Shown in pieces: positions 1 through 32,946 of a DNA stretch of 34,110 nt. The position numbers and the translations under genes are program-made. This DNA is from Chloroflexota bacterium. GTDB taxonomy: Bacteria > Chloroflexota > Dehalococcoidia > SM23-28-2 > RBG-16-64-32. The stretch lies in contig VBEJ01000008.1 of the NCBI GenBank assembly GCA_005882985.1, positions 1 through 34,110 of the forward strand, read 5' to 3'. The notes beneath the pieces are model-generated. The model ran no database searches. It was not told the DNA's origin and saw nothing but the letters and a program-made list of their open reading frames with translations. The first letter of the stretch is position 1; each line of letters opens with the position of its first letter.

Positions 1-199
1 CTCGTAGTCGGTGGCGCGGGCTACATCGGCTCTGTCACCGTTGACCAGCTGATCGACGCCGGACACGATGTTACCGTCCTCGATAGTCTCGTCGCCGGGC
101 ATAAGGGCGCCTTGAATGCCGGGGCTGAATTCGTGCAGGCTGATGTGCGCGACGAGGAGGCGTTGAACCGGCTCTTCGCGTCGCACACCTTCGACGCCG
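1..199 (+). repeat. 199-bp exact direct repeat, copy 1 (galE 5' segment)
   Basis: These bases are identical, with no mismatch, to 1165-1363 inside the intact galE gene. The copy begins at galE codon 4, exactly at the window edge, and ends at the string TTCGACGCCG, after which the sequence switches to a fabF gene. The arrangement is what a tandem duplication with a 1164-bp unit would leave. It is equally what a cycle in an assembly graph or a chimeric read would leave at a contig end. Confidence 0.95.
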
Positions 200-16213: not shown

Positions 16214-16302
16214 TGGCGGAGGGGGTGGGATTCGAACCCACGGTACCCAAAGGGTACACACGCTCTCCAGGCGTGCCCAATCGTCCACTCTGGCACCCCT
16301 CC
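16214..16302 (-). tRNA. tRNA-Ser (GGA anticodon)
   Basis: Read on the minus strand the 89 bases fold as a class II tRNA: acceptor GGAGGGG pairs with CCCCTCC, then a discriminator G and an encoded CCA. The anticodon loop CTGGAGA gives GGA. A long variable arm (GTACCC...GGGTAC) and T-loop GTTCGAATC are present. It lies downstream of the second tRNA-Ser on the same strand. Confidence 0.93.
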
Positions 16303-16408: not shown

Positions 16409-16499
16409 TGGCGGAGGGGGTGGGATTCGAACCCACGGTACCGCAAGGCGGTACAACGGTTTTCGAGACCGCCCCGATCAACCACTCCGGCACCCCTCC
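16409..16499 (-). tRNA. tRNA-Ser (CGA anticodon)
   Basis: This is a 91-base class II tRNA on the minus strand. The acceptor and T-arm are identical to those of the neighbouring tRNA-Ser, with encoded CCA. The anticodon loop CTCGAAA gives CGA. The variable arm is GTACCGCCTTGCGGTAC. It is upstream of tRNA-Ser(GGA), and the two are probably one transcript. Confidence 0.93.
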
Positions 16500-20150: not shown

Positions 20151-20606
20151 TTAGCGAACCAGGATCGTCAGCGTTCGGCTGCGTGCCAGTGATGCCTTGG
20201 GCAGCTTGATTTGCAGCATTCCGTCCTTATAGACGGTCTCAACCGCGTCTGGGTTAACTGCTGCCGGTAAGAATAGTTCTCGCTGGAAGGGTCCGTTGCT
20301 TATTTCCACCTGCCGAAACTCGCGTTTTGCCTCGTGCGGCGCTGGCTTTCGCTCGCCGCGCAGTGTACACCTCGACCCTTCCACCTCGAGCTCGACGTCG
20401 AGATCGCCAATTCCGGCGATCTCGACAATGATCACTACCTGCTCTTCTGTTTCGTAGATATCCACAGACGGCTCCGTGAACGGAACGGAGAAGCTCGGCC
20501 TGCCAGGTGCGCCGATTACGCGCTGGCGCGCCTGCTCCATACGCTCGCGGATGTGTTCGAACTGTGACGACGGCTGAGATACCCGCTTCGTCACTTTGCC
20601 TTTCAC
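20151..20606 (-). CDS. Hsp20 family small heat-shock protein
   Basis: With the GTG at 20606 the protein has 151 residues. An N-terminal helix (about 15-33) is followed by an alpha-crystallin domain: PSVDIYETEEQVVIIVEIAGI, LRGERKP, FQRELFLPAAV and the conserved DGMLQIKLPKA. It holds unfolding proteins for refolding or, as the next gene suggests, for Lon. The GTG overlaps the ridA stop in GTGA, so the two were translationally coupled. Because ridA has lost an out-of-phase segment, its start codon now reads straight into hsp20, making an open frame of 238 codons from 20867. Confidence 0.85.
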   Translation of the reverse strand: MKGKVTKRVSQPSSQFEHIRERMEQARQRVIGAPGRPSFSVPFTEPSVDIYETEEQVVIIVEIAGIGDLDVELEVEGSRCTLRGERKPAPHEAKREFRQVEISNGPFQRELFLPAAVNPDAVETVYKDGMLQIKLPKASLARSRTLTILVR

Positions 20607-20867
20607 GGTGCCGCCTCTACGATCATCTCGACTTCGACCGCGATATTCATCGGCAATTCCGCCACCCCAACCGACGGCCTCCTGCGCCACACCGATGTCC
20701 ACGTCGCCGCCGACCTTGCCGGTGACCGCGCCGTCCGGGCCAATCGGCCCGGCGCCCGACACGAAGACCAGATTTCCCGCCCGCGCCGCGCCTGCATACT
20801 TGCCGTACGATCGCCTCGGCGGCAGCGTTATCCCAAGCTCCCGGAGACGCTCGGCGACACTACCCAT
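20603..20867 (-). pseudogene. RidA/YjgF-family gene with internal deletion
   Basis: The 5' part encodes a good RidA start: an ELGITLPP-like segment, then AGNLVFVSGAGPIGPDG and TGKVGGDV, up to QEA near 20678. The 3' part, in another frame, encodes the RidA end SVGVAELPMNIAVEVEMIVE and stops at 20603. About 63 residues normally between these are missing. RidA removes reactive enamine/imine intermediates, and its core is lost here. The junction CAGGAGGCCG reads as QEA in the first frame and as RRP in the second, hinting at a short homology at the break. It begins 6 nt after the gyrA stop. The deletion may be real or an assembly collapse. Confidence 0.8.
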
Positions 20868-20873
20868 ACGCCG

Positions 20874-23054
20874 CTATTTGCTCTTCTTCGGCCGGGGAGT
20901 TCTCTTTTTCGGCTCGTCCGCCGCATCTCCTGGCTTGGGCTTGTCACCGTCTTCAGCCAAGGCGACCGTTGCGCCCGTCGGCAGGCCATCAGGCGTGTCG
21001 TACTCGCGCTGCATATCGATCACGGCAACAGCGGCGACGCGGTCGCGGTCGACATCCATTAGCGTGACGCCCTGCGTGGAACGAAGCTGTTTCGAGATGT
21101 GCTCGATTGGCGTACGAAGGACAATGCCCTCTTCAGAGATAAGCATCAGTTCGTGGCTGGGGTTTACCATCCGGGCCGCCATCAGTTCGCCAGTCTTTGG
21201 CGTCGTCTTGAACGTCCGCACACCTTGCCCACCGCGCCCGTGTCTCGGGTACTCGTCAACGTGTGTGCGCTTGCCGAACCCGAACTCGCTGACGACCAAT
21301 AGTGCTTCTGCAGCGCTCGCGATTTCCATACCAACCATGCGGTCGCCGGAGGCCAACCTCATTCCGCGGACGCCTCCTGAAAGGCGGGAAGCGGAGCGAA
21401 GCAGTTGGACCGGGAAGCGGACAGACTGCCCGCGCGCGGACACGAGAATGGCATCGTCGGCATCAACCGCCAGCTTCGCCGACACCAGCTCGTCTGCCGG
21501 CTCGAGGTCCATCGCGATGAGTCCATCGCGCCGCACGTTGGCGAAGTTCTTCAGCGGAGTCTTCTTCACCTCGCCCAGCTTCGTCGCGACGACCATATAT
21601 TCGTGGTCCAAGTCCGGCGGTATCCGTACGACCGCCGTGATCCTCTCCCTTTGGTCGAGCTGGAGCAGTTGCATAACCGACTCGCCGCGCGCCTGGCGGG
21701 ACTCATCGGTGACTTCATACGTCTTAACCTGGAAGCAGCGGCCGCGGTCGGTGAAGAAGATGAGCTTGTCATGCGTATCGGCGACGACTAGATGCCGCAC
21801 TGCGTCGTCCTCGCGCGTCTTCATGCCGATCACCCCGACGCCGCCCCGGCGCTGCGCCCGATAGGTGCTCAGCGGCAGGCGCTTGATGAAGCCACGCTTC
21901 GAAATCGTGACCACCACTTCCTGGTGCGCCACCATGTCCTCTTCCGAGAACTCTTCCGGCTCCTGATCCACGATGATCGTGCGGCGGTCGTCGCCGTACG
22001 TCTTCTTCAGGTCGACCGCATCGTCTTTAATCAAAGAGTCGATCTTGCGGGGGTTAGCGAGCAGGTCCTCGAGGTACGAGATCAGCTCGATCAGCTCCTT
22101 GTACTCGTCCTGGATCTTGTCCCGCTCGAGCTTTGCCAGGCGGCGGAGCTGCATATCGAGGACAGCCTGCGCCTGGCGGTCGCTCAATTCGAACGGCGCG
22201 CGCATTAAACGGCCCTTCGCCTCCTCGGCGGAAGGAGACTGCCGGATCGTCTGGATGACCTGATCTAGCATGTCGATCGCTTTGAGCAACCCTTCGAGAA
22301 CGTGCGCCCGGTCGCGCGCTTTCTCGAGGTCGAACTCCGACCGGCGGCGGATCACATCGCGCCGGTGGTCGATGTACGACTCGAGCATCTTCTTGAGGCT
22401 CACCGTGCGCGGCTGCCGGTCCACCAGCGCGAGCATGTTTACCGCGAAGGCGGACTGCATGGCGGTGTGCTTGTACAGCGCGTTCAGCAGTTGCCGTGGC
22501 TGCGCCTCACGCTTTAGCTCGATGACTATGCGCATGCCGTGGCGGTCCGACTCATCTCGCAGGTCAGCGATGCCGTCGATGCGCTTGGCGCGGGCCAGGT
22601 CGGCGATCTTCTCGACAAGCGTGGCCTTGTTCGTCTGGTAAGGCAGTTCGGTGACGATGATCTGGTTCCGGTTCCCCTTCGCCATTTCTTCGATGTGCAC
22701 GCGCGCCCTGGTGACGATGCGGCCTCGGCCCTCGAACGCGCCCCGGATGGCGTCCCTACGCTCGGACGTGGGCCCCTGGCCATTGGTTGCGGGCAGGCGC
22801 ACAGTCTCGTAGCGGAAGATGACCCCGCCGGTGGGGAAGTCAGGCCCCCTCACGATCTCGGCCAGCTCTTCCATCGTTACTTCCGGATGATCGATCAGAT
22901 GAGCGACGGCGTCACACAGCTCGCCGAGGTTGTGCGGCGGTATGTTCGTGGCCATTCCGACGGCAATGCCGGACGCGCCGTTTGCCAGCAGGTTCGGCAC
23001 CCGCGCCGGGAGCACAACCGGCTCCTTCAGCTCATCGTCAAAGTTCGGGGACAT
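20874..23054 (-). pseudogene. gyrA: DNA gyrase subunit A, C-terminal segment of a gene with internal deletion
   Basis: This long part of gyrA is intact from [19 protein letters not shown] onward: the rest of the breakage-reunion domain ([30 protein letters not shown]), the coiled coil and C-gate, then a six-bladed beta-pinwheel. The GyrA box reads QRRGGVG, marking gyrase over topoisomerase IV. The tail is Lys/Pro-rich. It is out of frame with the N-terminal segment at 23027-23329. About 57 codons between them are absent, including the AMRYTE region with the DNA-attacking tyrosine. A loop of about 15 residues (RLPATNGQGPTSER) in the middle looks like an insertion. As drawn, this gene cannot make active gyrase. 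Confidence 0.9.
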
Positions 23055-23329
23055 GTCGACGCGGGGGCGTCCCCGTGCGGGTGGTAATTCTTAAGGACTT
23101 CACCGACAATACCGGCGCACTTTCGGTATTTCGTGCCCGGGTTCAACCCCATCTGCTGCATCGCGTAGAGGATACGGCGCTGCACCGGCTTCAGCCCGTC
23201 GCGGATGTCCGGCAGAGCGCGCTGGACGATGACGGACATCGCGTAGTCGAGATACGACGAGCGCATCTCCTCTTCGATCTTGATCGGGCGCACGCTCAGT
23301 GCGGGAATCGGCGGTGGTTCGAGGGTCAT
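23027..23329 (-). pseudogene. gyrA: DNA gyrase subunit A, N-terminal segment of the same broken gene
   Basis: The ATG at 23329 follows AAGGAG by 6 nt. The first 86 or so codons are canonical Gyr[40 protein letters not shown] and [15 protein letters not shown]. After HGDAP the frame runs into about 12 unrelated residues and a stop, while the correct downstream sequence resumes at once in another frame. The missing piece would hold VYDALVRMAQ, the GNFGS loop and the catalytic RY pair. No trace of it lies in any frame between the segments, so this is a deletion and not a simple frameshift. Confidence 0.9.
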
Positions 23330-24116: not shown

Positions 24117-24145
24117 TTGGAGACAAGGTTCTGTATTTTTAGAAT
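24117..24145 (+). promoter_or_regulatory. Promoter of the DUF2867-DinB gene
   Basis: TTGGAG (24117-24122) and TAGAAT (24140-24145) stand exactly 17 nt apart, with an AT-rich spacer. The -10 is part of TATTTTTAGAAT, nearly repeated as TATTTTCAGAAT at 25495-25506 before the next gene. Confidence 0.55.
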
Positions 24146-24180
24146 GGTTGGCACATCGAGTACAGGGGGAGGCGCTCCGT

Positions 24181-25425
24181 ATGCACTCAATAAGGCTTCC
24201 GAACAAAACACACGAATCTCGCCCCTGGCGCATCCGCGAAATCGCCCGAGACTTCACTCTGGAGGATGTCTGGGCTCTTCCCGTGTACGGAGGCACCGAG
24301 GACTTCCAAACGCTGCTCGAAAATCTGGTTTCTTTCAATCCAGCCAACGCTGAGTCCCTCCCGGCCCGCGTCCTGTGGCGTTTCCGCGATCGCCTCGGCC
24401 GTTGGTTTGGCCTCGGCAGCATTTCGGCCCCGATCAACAGCGGTCGGGATCGTGGCGCCCGCAAGCTGGCGATTCCGGGTACGAACGAGACCTCGCTGAC
24501 CTGCAGGCTTCCAGGCGATCTGCGCAACACGGCGGCGGATTTGGCGTTCGACGTCCTGCCTTTCGCGCCCCTCTATCGCACCAATGTCGAATTCGCTGCC
24601 GAAGTCTCGAACCTCACCGTGCACGGCGTCATGCACATGGCCTGGGTCCATCAGGGCGAAGGCCGCTATCAGGGACAGATGGCCGTCTACGTCAAGCCAC
24701 GCGGTCCGCTAGGGAGGGGATACATGGCGCTCATCAAGCCGTTCCGGTACTGGGTTGTTTACCCAGCACTCATGAGACAGATCGAACGGGCATGGAAGGC
24801 ACGTGTCCCCGAGTGCGGTACTGGCCGAACTGCGAACTCAGAAACTCTCGCGGCGCCGAGAGAGAAGCTACGTTCAGCCCACAGGAGGTTACAGATGACC
24901 GAACAGTCGACGCTGTCCAAAGCCGAACTTCTGGACAGCTTGCGGTCCTCAGGCGAGAATGCCGTCGCGCGGTTGCGCAAGATACCCGACGCCGAGTTTG
25001 AAAAGGGGCGTTACGAGAGCGGGTGGAACGGGCGGCAGATCCTGGCGCACATCGCCTCCATCGAGTGGACTTATCCGCGACTGCTCGATGTGGCGCGAAA
25101 GGCGCTCGTGCCAAAGCCGGCGGAAACACAGAAAGAGAAGACCACCGATCCGCCGCAACGGGCTGCGCGCGGCGGCATAGACGACTACAACGCGCGGCAG
25201 GTGGAGAAGCGCGCGCAAATGAGTGTCACAGAGCTCATCGCTGAGTTCGAAGCGAACCGGGCGACGACGGTGGCGGCGATCGAGGCGGCGGATGAGGCGT
25301 TGTTCAGCACCACGATCCGAGCAGCGGGGGGAAACAACACGGGACCGCTGGCGGATGTGTTGCACGCGGTCGCCGTCCTGCACGTCGCCGGGCACGTGAA
25401 CGACATCGCGGGGCCAGCTTCGTGA
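24181..25425 (+). CDS. DUF2867 protein in one open frame with a DinB-like domain
   Basis: The ATG at 24181 has GGGGGAGG about 8 nt upstream. Residues 1 to about 200 are DUF2867: SRPWRIREIARDFTLEDVWALP, FDVLPFAPLYRTNVEFAAE, LTVHGVMHMAWV and YMALIKPFRYWVVYP. No stop codon follows. The frame passes through about 35 residues without a motif and continues into a DinB-like domain (from residue 239) that has its own strong ribosome-binding site. Either this is a true two-domain protein of 414 residues or the DUF2867 stop has been lost. DUF2867 proteins have unknown function, with an SRPBCC-like or lipid-binding role only guessed. Located next to the GbsR regulator. Confidence 0.7.
   Translation: MHSIRLPNKTHESRPWRIREIARDFTLEDVWALPVYGGTEDFQTLLENLVSFNPANAESLPARVLWRFRDRLGRWFGLGSISAPINSGRDRGARKLAIPGTNETSLTCRLPGDLRNTAADLAFDVLPFAPLYRTNVEFAAEVSNLTVHGVMHMAWVHQGEGRYQGQMAVYVKPRGPLGRGYMALIKPFRYWVVYPALMRQIERAWKARVPECGTGRTANSETLAAPREKLRSAHRRLQMTEQSTLSKAELLDSLRSSGENAVARLRKIPDAEFEKGRYESGWNGRQILAHIASIEWTYPRLLDVARKALVPKPAETQKEKTTDPPQRAARGGIDDYNARQVEKRAQMSVTELIAEFEANRATTVAAIEAADEALFSTTIRAAGGNNTGPLADVLHAVAVLHVAGHVNDIAGPAS
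24895..25425 (+). CDS. DinB / maleylpyruvate isomerase-like domain protein (internal start)
   Basis: AGGAGG (24883-24888) lies 6 nt before this ATG, the best ribosome-binding site in the neighbourhood, so a separate 176-residue protein is likely made even though the upstream frame is open. GWNGRQILAHIASIEW and AVLHVAGHVNDIAG supply the histidines expected for the four-helix DinB metal site. Relatives include thiol-dependent isomerases and transferases and proteins of unknown role. It ends just before a terminator. Confidence 0.7.
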   Translation: MTEQSTLSKAELLDSLRSSGENAVARLRKIPDAEFEKGRYESGWNGRQILAHIASIEWTYPRLLDVARKALVPKPAETQKEKTTDPPQRAARGGIDDYNARQVEKRAQMSVTELIAEFEANRATTVAAIEAADEALFSTTIRAAGGNNTGPLADVLHAVAVLHVAGHVNDIAGPAS

Positions 25426-25453
25426 GGCAGGGTCAGATTTTGATGCCACCGTC

Positions 25454-25478
25454 GGGGAGGTGATCGATCCCCCTTTTT
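25454..25478 (+). terminator. Intrinsic terminator after the DinB-like gene
   Basis: GGGGA (25454-25458) pairs with TCCCC (25468-25472) around a 9-nt loop. A run of five T follows at 25474-25478. Confidence 0.55.
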
Positions 25479-25535
25479 CGAAATTCGTACTCGTTATTTT
25501 CAGAATTTACGGCATGACCAAGGAGGTACGCGTTG

Positions 25536-29623: not shown

Positions 29624-30568
29624 TCAAGTTCGGGCGATTATGGCCCGCCACACGCCGTCGTCGATAACCTTTACTATCGTCAGGCCTGTCCCTTCCAAGG
29701 CGTTCGAGAGACCCACGACCGCATCGTCGAGAAATCCGCTTGTGATTAGCGACCCGCCGGGTCCCAGTGAGCGCGCGAGGTCTGCTGCGAGCCTCTCCAA
29801 TGTAAGCCCGCTGATGTTCGCGACGATCACATCGAACGGCCCGCCCCCGCCCTCGAGCGTCCCCTCTCGCACCCCAACCAGGTCGGCGACGCCGTTGGCC
29901 GCAGCGTTTTCTCGCGTCGCGCGTACGGCATTCGGGTCCAAATCGAGCGCGAGCACGTGCGTGGCGCCGAGTTTGGCCGCGGCGATGGCGAGGATGCCGG
30001 ACCCGCAGCCCAGGTCGAGCACGTCCGCGCCTTTGAGCAACTGCTCTTCGAGCGCCCGCAGGCACATCGCTGTCGTCGGATGCTGGCCCGTGCCGAAGGC
30101 CATCCCCGGATCGATCTCGATCACGATGTCACCGCCCTTGAGCCGGTAACGTGTCCAGGACGGCTTGACCACGAGGGCCCGCCCGTGTCGCTGGACGCCG
30201 AAGTGCTTCTTCCAGGAGTCGCTCCAGGACTCCTCTCGCAGCCGCCGGACACGACGCCAGCGCGGCGGGTGCTCGAGCGGCGCCGCCCTCATCGCCAGGC
30301 GCAACGATCGCCGGAGGCGCTCGGAATCTTGCCCCGCCGGAAGATACCCGCAGACTAGCGCCAGCGCGTCGCCGTCGGCGACGTAGCTGTCACTGTCCAG
30401 TTCGTAGCGCGAGGCAGATTGGATCGCAACACCGCCCGGGCAAGCCTGCCGCAAGATATCGGCCGCCACATCAGTATCGATAGCCGCCACTTCGACGGCG
30501 ATCTCCAGCCAGGTAGGCTCGCTTGCGACATTCGCGCGCTTCATCTCAGTATGGCCGAGCGTGGGCAT
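29624..30568 (-). CDS. prmA: Ribosomal protein L11 methyltransferase PrmA
   Basis: The protein trimethylates ribosomal protein L11. Family features are PTWLEIAVEV, the DPGMAFGTGQHPTTAMCL loop, SAM motif I in VLDLGCGSGILAIAA, ALDLDPNAV and the VANI motif before the end. The start is uncertain: ATG 30568 gives 314 residues and has TTTAAT 4 nt upstream, whereas ATG 30544 gives the more usual opening but no signals. Divergent from the TolB-like gene. Confidence 0.92.
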   Translation of the reverse strand: MPTLGHTEMKRANVASEPTWLEIAVEVAAIDTDVAADILRQACPGGVAIQSASRYELDSDSYVADGDALALVCGYLPAGQDSERLRRSLRLAMRAAPLEHPPRWRRVRRLREESWSDSWKKHFGVQRHGRALVVKPSWTRYRLKGGDIVIEIDPGMAFGTGQHPTTAMCLRALEEQLLKGADVLDLGCGSGILAIAAAKLGATHVLALDLDPNAVRATRENAAANGVADLVGVREGTLEGGGGPFDVIVANISGLTLERLAADLARSLGPGGSLITSGFLDDAVVGLSNALEGTGLTIVKVIDDGVWRAIIART

Positions 30569-30608
30569 CAAGATTAAAATCGAACCAGATCACTCTTGGT
30601 CCGCGTCA

Positions 30609-31770
30609 GTGCGTAGCATCCTCACTTCTTGGGTAGCTCTGTGCATGATTCTTGCGCTGGCATGCAGTCACGGACCCCAGACACCTGCGCCGCTGGAACA
30701 GTAAGGCCAGTGACGAGCCGACCGACTGCAATCATCAGGGGGGTCCGTTCGTAGCGTTCTTTTCGTATTATGAGCCCTCCTACGAGATTGGTTTAGCCGC
30801 CGCAGACGGCTCGTGTATCCAGCGCCTGACCAACAACAATGACGCCGATGGTTTCGTAGAGACTTGCCACGAGCCGAGGGGTATATTTTGCCCATCGCTA
30901 GGTGCCACAGGTCTGTCATGGTCGCCAGACTCTCAGAACATCCTATTTACCTCCGACCGGGATGGTGACGCGGAGGTCTACGAGATGAATCGAGACGGTA
31001 GCAATGTCAGACAACTAACCGATAACTCGGCCGATGACATCGTTGGTGACAACGCTTGGTCGCCGAACGGTGACGGCATCGTTTTCACCACCGACCGAGA
31101 CGGCAACCGCGAGATCTATTCCATGCGATCGGACGGTCAGGAGCAAACGAATCTTTCGCGCGATGAAGCCGGAGATTTCAATCCACAGTGGTCGCCCGAT
31201 GGGTCCCGCATAGTCTTCCTATCTACCCGCCTGGCGCCAGAACGCTTCTACGATACTGACATCTTCGTTATGAACCGTGATGGATCCTCGGTGTCCCTCG
31301 TCACGGACGGGCCGGATCAGGTCGGCGCTCCAAGCTGGTCCCCTAGGTCAGATGCTATCGCCTATGTTTCATTCTGCTGTGGCGATGCCATCTCCCGGGA
31401 GGAAATCTTTCTCGTCAACATCGACGGGTCGGGGCGCAAGTTGTTTGTGCCTGATCTCGCCAGCAATCCCGAGTGGTCGCCCAAAGGTGACGCCATTGCA
31501 TTTTACGCTTGTCCGGGCCGTAACTGCCGGGAGAATGGTGCCGGCGGCATATATATCAAGTCGGCAGACGGAACTGGTGGCAAGCAGCTCACTGCCTCAC
31601 CATATGACACCCAGTCATTCAGATGGTCACCCGATGGCACGAAGTTGGCATATCAGGCTCTCGGCACCGGCGACGATAAGGTACACCTGTTCGTGCTCAA
31701 TACCGATGGATCTAACCCGCGCGAGATATCGGATCGCCTATCCCTTAACCCGGTGTGGTCGCCTCGCTGA
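30609..31770 (+). pseudogene. TolB-like (PD40 beta-propeller) lipoprotein with a frame break
   Basis: A GTG at 30609 opens a lipoprotein signal (SILTSWVALCMILALAC then SHGPQ) that stops at 30702. The rest of the protein lies in another frame open from 30652: GGPFVAFFSYYEPSYEI and then six PD40 blades of the form WSPDSQNILFTSDRDGDAEVY, each ending in a DG turn (MNRDGSN, MRSDGQ, MNRDGSS, VNIDGSG, KSADGTG and LNTDGSN). One inserted or lost base near 30690-30705 would join signal and propeller. Such proteins bind partners or glycans at the cell surface. The lesion may be sequence error. Confidence 0.75.
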
Positions 31771-31821
31771 TAGAGACGTGTCAAAGCGAACAGCTCCATC
31801 GGAGTCGTCTACTGCCCGCGC

Positions 31822-32946
31822 TTAGCCCAGGGCGTCTTTGATCTTGCCGAAAATGCTCTTGTCGCCGTTCGCCACCGGCGTTCCGAAGCTCTCGGCCAAG
31901 CGCTGAAGGAGGTCCCGCTGCTCCTCGGTAAGGTCGGTCGGGGTAACGGTGGAAGCCCTCACCAGGAGGTCGCCGCGCCCGCCGGTGTGAAGCCTCGGTA
32001 CGCCCTTGCCCCGCAACGTAAAGACGTGTCCCGACTGCGTGCCCCCTGGGACGCGCATCGGCACCTCATCCCCCTCGAGCGTTGGTACGCGTGCTTCGAA
32101 GCCGAGAGCAGCCTGCGCCGGGTTCATCTCCAGCTCGTAGATGAGATCGTCCTCTTCCCTGCTGAAGAAGGGGTGAGGGCGCACACCTATGAAGACATAC
32201 AGATGGCCGGGGCGCCCGCCGTGGGCGCCCACATCACCTTCGCCATTCAATCGCATGCGCGCGCCGTCGCTCACTCCGGCCGGGATCTTGACGCTGAGCT
32301 TTCGCTGTTTCCGTTCTTGACCGGAACCGCGGCATTCTTTGCAGGGGTTCGTAATGGTCCGGCCTTCGCCCCGGCACTGAGGGCAGGTGGCGATGTTTAC
32401 GAACTGACCGAAGAAGCTCCTGCTGACCCGGCGCACTTGCCCGCTGCCTTCACAAGTGGCGCAGCGCGGCGATTTGGAGCCCGGCTCGCCGCCGCTACCT
32501 GCGCAGCGCTGGCAGCGCTCTACCCGCTCGACCTCGATCTCGCGTTCGCAGCCGAACGCGCCCATCTCGAAGTCGATCTCGATATCGATGCGGCGGTCCG
32601 CCCCTCGCTGGGCCTCCCGGCCTCGACGGCCGGTTGTCGTCCCGGTGAAGAACGCCTCGAATATGTCTCCGAATCCACCGAAATCGGCGCCGTCGAAGCC
32701 CCGGCCGAAGTCGAACCCCTGCAGGCCCGCATGGCCGAAGCGGTCGTACGCGGTGCGCTTCTCGGGGTCCGACAGCACCTCATACGCCTCACCGATCTCC
32801 TTGAAGCGCGCTTCGGCGCTATCGTCCTTGTTCCGGTCCGGGTGATACTTCATCGCCAGGCGCCGGAACGCCTTTTTCACGTCTTCAGCCGACGCATTAC
32901 GCGAGACGCCGAGGATGTCATAGTAGTCGTGCCGCGCGGTCGCCAT
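31822..32946 (-). CDS. dnaJ: Molecular chaperone DnaJ
   Basis: From ATG 32946 the protein has 374 residues. The J domain carries KYHPDRNK with the HPD that stimulates DnaK, then a Gly/Phe-rich segment ([17 protein letters not shown]). Four zinc motifs [24 protein letters not shown] and CKECRGSG follow in order, and then the two substrate-binding domains. TACAAT lies 10 nt before the ATG and no Shine-Dalgarno sequence is seen. No grpE or dnaK is in the window. A start nine codons upstream is possible but adds a non-family leader. Confidence 0.94.

Follow-up and report, generated by a model that had tools for sequence, protein, structure and literature searches.

The window, that is, the whole stretch of DNA analysed here (34,110 bp), is one entire contig of a metagenome bin that has a completeness of 83% and comprises 313 contigs (2.62 Mb). 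Its minus strand carries the gene series gyrA - ridA - hsp20 - lon. We compared it with two Chloroflexi MAGs of the same genus, G001 (VBJT01) and G002 (VBEI01), which are referred to below as the congeners. An adjoining pair of tRNA-Ser genes lies on the minus strand at 16214-16302 and 16409-16499 (anticodons gga and cga). At 24119-25520 the window holds ~1.3 kb extra relative to the same place in G001. The stretch at 30512-31822 (~1.3 kb) includes an ORF (30652-31770) with repeated WSPDG-type motifs; the congeners have only 63-64 bp there.

The breaks in ridA and gyrA

The 5' part of ridA (20675-20867, minus strand) comprises codons 1-64, and its protein is 92% identical to RidA of G001. The 3' part with the stop codon follows at 20603-20674 (minus strand) in a different frame; it encodes the C-terminus (SVGVAELPMNIAVEVEMIVEAAP followed by the stop), out of frame with the N-terminal codons. 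Next comes hsp20 proper (20151-20606, minus strand), which encodes a small heat-shock protein (PF00011) and whose GTG start overlaps the ridA stop in the sequence GTGA. An earlier note on this DNA had described a RidA with start and end both kept in different frames and a GTGA overlap with hsp20, and this description is correct. Its estimate of the missing length (about 63 residues, about 190 bases) was close to the alignments with G001 and G002, in which 194 bp of both congeners, or ~65 codons, are absent at the blunt junction 20674/20675 (minus strand). Taken as a loss, this exceeds chance.

At the ridA junction the window joins GGCCG directly to TCGG. In the congeners, CGAGG or CCAAG comes after the left side and GGAGT or GTAGT before the right side; the microhomology is 0 bp against both. 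The short shared sequence of ten bases proposed in the earlier note, CAGGAGGCCG, is contradicted by both congeners. It fits the left context only, and the right context is HARS followed by SVG in both congeners, not RRPSV.

The congener RidA proteins pass the cut-offs of both Pfam families, PF01042 and PF14588. The closest solved sequences are 3d01 and 9bk9 (Rid family protein PA0814), the former being matched over residues 4-150 of 152. Compared with this family, the RidA of the window has the first 64 residues, lacks the ~65 middle codons and is out of frame thereafter. It scored 14 bits for PF01042, under the curated cut-off of 27.3, versus 52.4 and 49.7 for the two congener copies.

A break of the same kind, blunt and frame-shifting, lies 2.4 kb away in gyrA. 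The 5' part of this gene (23062-23329, minus strand) has ~89 codons and extends up to HPHGD-AP. At the junction (23061/23062, minus strand) 172 bp of both congeners are absent, including the codons of the AYRYTE segment, whose tyrosine corresponds to the catalytic Tyr122 in GyrA of E. coli. The rest of gyrA (20874-23061, minus strand) is in a frame unlike that of the 5' part. Microhomology at this junction was again 0 bp against both congeners. A microhomology-mediated deletion is not supported, no bases being common to both ends of either break, whichever congener was used. The lost pieces of ridA and gyrA were not found elsewhere in the bin, but empty answers to this search show nothing.

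At a completeness of 83%, the bin yielded no PF00521 gene apart from the broken gyrA. All 40 relatives searched have a PF00521 gene; 39 of them gave one match, some of these partial (cut at the profile end), and the remaining one (G007) gave four, three of which are fragments on a contig rich in N runs. Besides the genome of the window, G007 was thus the only one with gyrA in separate pieces among these 40. G007 also has a second gyrA-ridA contig (L046, G007:C48) with nine N runs in 3.7 kb. No gyrB match was found in the bin. In view of this and of the completeness of 83%, arguments from absence are weakened, and a second gyrA may simply be missing from the bin.

The contig start holds a further junction. 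Positions 1-199 (plus strand) are a perfect copy of galE sequence (1165-1363) that is fused to fabF, and the ten bases at 190-199 fit both genes. Only the second half of fabF is present there. In congener G001 an entire fabF precedes galE, whose start has disappeared there into a stretch of N. Being perfect over 199 bp and placed at the end of a contig, the duplicate in the window resembles a chimeric end.

The open frame from ridA into hsp20

An open frame of 238 codons (20151-20867, minus strand) leads from the RidA N-terminus into Hsp20, and the claim that the out-of-phase loss creates such a frame was confirmed. The Pfam search of its product detected Hsp20 (PF00011, E=8.3e-14) at residues 136-228 of 238, with 52 bits against a curated cut-off of 20.8 and with profile positions 1-91 of 102 covered; no RidA domain was detected. 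A real deletion that yields a functional RidA-Hsp20 hybrid, a small heat-shock protein of ~26 kDa, would be consistent with a frame open through all 238 codons and with this nearly entire Hsp20 domain. However, the RidA part stays below the Pfam cut-off (14 bits versus 27.3) and lacks the HARS arginine segment, to which we ascribe a catalytic role. The two genes are readable at 10 family loci, and none of these has a fused frame. We also simulated frame-shifting deletions of 150-249 bp in ridA of G002, and 2,188 of 14,619 (15%) gave one open frame into hsp20 by chance. The fused frame therefore requires no special cause, and its being open is unremarkable. Overall, we regard a functional hybrid as extremely improbable.

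Equal open-frame lengths for the RidA and Hsp20 matches had pointed to natural fusions in G008, G012 and G014; the DNA has a stop between the genes, and this candidate was rejected. A literature search for a RidA-Hsp20 fusion protein gave only papers that are unrelated, judged by title and abstract. In one relative (L044, G004:C35), hsp20 near a contig end is the C-terminal part of a 257-codon open frame with an N-terminal part unlike Hsp20, possibly another chimeric contig end.

Divergence past the breaks and ridA in the family

The main part of gyrA sits past the frameshift; were the loss real, translation from the gyrA start would not reach it in frame. Its differences from G001 amount to 1.5, 0.7 and 16.7% at codon positions 1, 2 and 3, and those from G002 to 3.7, 1.2 and 29.1%. 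The corresponding values for hsp20 were 10.4, 6.0 and 32.8% against G001 (67 codons) and 6.6, 8.6 and 31.6% against G002. For the 3' part of ridA, read in the RidA frame over 24 codons only, we obtained 8.3, 4.2 and 33.3% against G001 and 8.3, 4.2 and 16.7% against G002. Third-position differences thus dominate past the breaks, and neither the ridA flanks nor gyrA show clear relaxed constraint.

Across the ridA junction, the identity to G001 changes from 93% (gyrA side) to 84% (hsp20 side), as might be expected if the contig were a chimera of two related strains joined at this point. The third-position differences, however, are 0.28, 0.32 and 0.24 in the three bins surrounding the junction, without a step there, and their drop falls in the next bin, where gyrA begins. 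A strain chimera at the ridA junction was rejected on these grounds, and we consider it very unlikely.

We examined ridA beside hsp20 in 14 genomes of the same family (G001-G014). The gene covers the lost region without a gap in 10 of them (11 loci, as G007 has two); this count includes G005, where ridA begins at a contig edge and still covers the region. In G004, ridA is cut by the contig end. The 194-bp loss of the window was found in none of the 14. The other three genomes (G003, G009 and G013) carry a ridA pseudogene between gyrA and hsp20 (L036, 3950-4290; L037, 4170-4520; L038, 3350-3735) with common losses and stops, 92-97% alike. The decay is genuine, since its pattern is common to three genomes, and it is an older one. 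Like the ridA of the window, this pseudogene has internal losses between gyrA and hsp20; unlike it, it has other breakpoints, several losses and stops, and a neighbouring gyrA that is whole over the Pfam domain. In G011, listed in the same genus as the species with the pseudogene, ridA is intact.

The earlier note had named relatives with the same short ridA under selection as evidence that would speak against a deletion. Relatives with a shortened ridA do exist, in the three species just described, but the deletion is another one and the gene is a decayed pseudogene.

As ridA has truly decayed in three other species, ridA considered by itself may really have been lost here. The window would then record a recent natural deletion, in the species or in its dominant strain, that abolished RidA function, with Hsp20 made from its own GTG and the gyrA break perhaps a separate artefact. 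The decayed ridA of G003, G009 and G013 at the same place, beside a gyrA that is whole over its Pfam domain, is in line with this, as are two other ridA-family genes that a PF01042 search found in the bin. On the other hand, the gyrA break at 2.4 kb is of the same kind and is hardly a real one, relaxed constraint is not clear in the ridA flanks or in gyrA, and no bases are shared at the junction. Weighing these points, we think a natural loss of ridA unlikely.

Origin of the breaks

On one contig and 2.4 kb apart, ridA and gyrA thus each lack a stretch of comparable length (194 and 172 bp) that both congeners possess, and both losses are blunt and shift the frame. One of them strikes gyrA, a hardly dispensable gene, without signs of decay, although a second copy is possible in a bin that is 83% complete. 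The equal blunt break in gyrA, the chimeric junction of the contig and the substitutions that follow the original frames past the breaks indicate assembly errors. We infer, with a probability of roughly 0.8, that both breaks are local errors of a short-read metagenome assembly. The same three observations make the real RidA-Hsp20 hybrid of the earlier note unlikely, and the hybrid protein most likely does not exist. That both losses are real, in a species without standard gyrA and with a ridA remnant translated as a RidA-Hsp20 small heat-shock protein, is barely credible.

In the assembly errors proposed here, two contig pieces ~170-200 bp apart would have been joined end to end and the intervening bases dropped, probably because an unassembled gap was lost. 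The 238-codon frame would then be a by-product of a frame-shifting loss beside a gene whose upstream frame is open by chance. Gap closing on a 10-bp overlap was rejected for ridA and gyrA because of the 0 bp of microhomology at both junctions; it is possible only for the galE-fabF junction, with its ten common bases, at the contig start. As in the congeners, both genes are most likely full-length in the living organism, with the end of ridA overlapping hsp20 by GTGA.

Errors of this type are known from IDBA-UD. The part of PMC4384745 available to us describes short deletions as common in idba-ud assemblies and gives about one mis-assembly per 120 kb in one genome. According to part of PMC7111523, IDBA-UD scaffolds often overlap by the largest k-mer size. 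By their sample codes, the congener MAGs VBJT01 and VBEI01 can be attributed to the study PMC6784897, which, in the portion available, mostly used IDBA-UD with k up to 200 and reads cut to 200 bp. With a largest k of 200, a contig tail of 200 bp is expected, and that of the window has 199 bp. The match is suggestive at most, the tail being one base short. The same portion of PMC6784897 states that scaffolding errors in its bins were corrected, which counts against an assembly error if the window's genome shares that study.

In the available parts of PMC4384745, PMC7111523 and PMC5079060, the short deletions and local errors of IDBA-UD resemble the window in that a short stretch is missing inside well-kept genes. 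Blunt joins, two of them in a short region, and a chimeric contig end are a further likeness to local errors in metagenome assemblies as those parts present them. Unlike those cases, ours was judged from the assembled sequence alone, and IDBA-UD is a possible assembler of this bin.

We counted no N runs in 185 kb of the bin's own sequence (11 contigs, four of them in part, with four masked stretches left out), versus five in 166 kb of congener sequence. This would be consistent with the closing or omission of gaps, or with another pipeline. We also surveyed the window, together with 20-kb stretches from three other contigs of the bin, for losses, using tables of neighbouring BLAST pieces from which pieces of ≤80 bits were dropped. 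The survey covered the gaps between pieces, and some stretches do not align with both congeners. In the stretches outside the window (60 kb), this procedure revealed no blunt loss of 150-250 bp relative to both congeners, and such errors are therefore infrequent across the bin. Larger or one-sided differences occurred in the surveyed stretches, for example 778 bp relative to G002 alone (L129) and 884 bp relative to G001 (L130).

Our findings illustrate cleanly how the decay and the fusion of genes can both be mimicked by a local assembly error within a metagenome bin. Sequence alone suffices to check for the signs: blunt ends relative to congeners, an essential neighbour that is equally broken, and a codon-position bias that persists past the break. 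Left unchecked, a false RidA-Hsp20 fusion and a false loss of gyrase would get into databases. The RidA-Hsp20 feature is most likely not real. If the loss of ridA were true, the family would have two cases of ridA decay at this locus.
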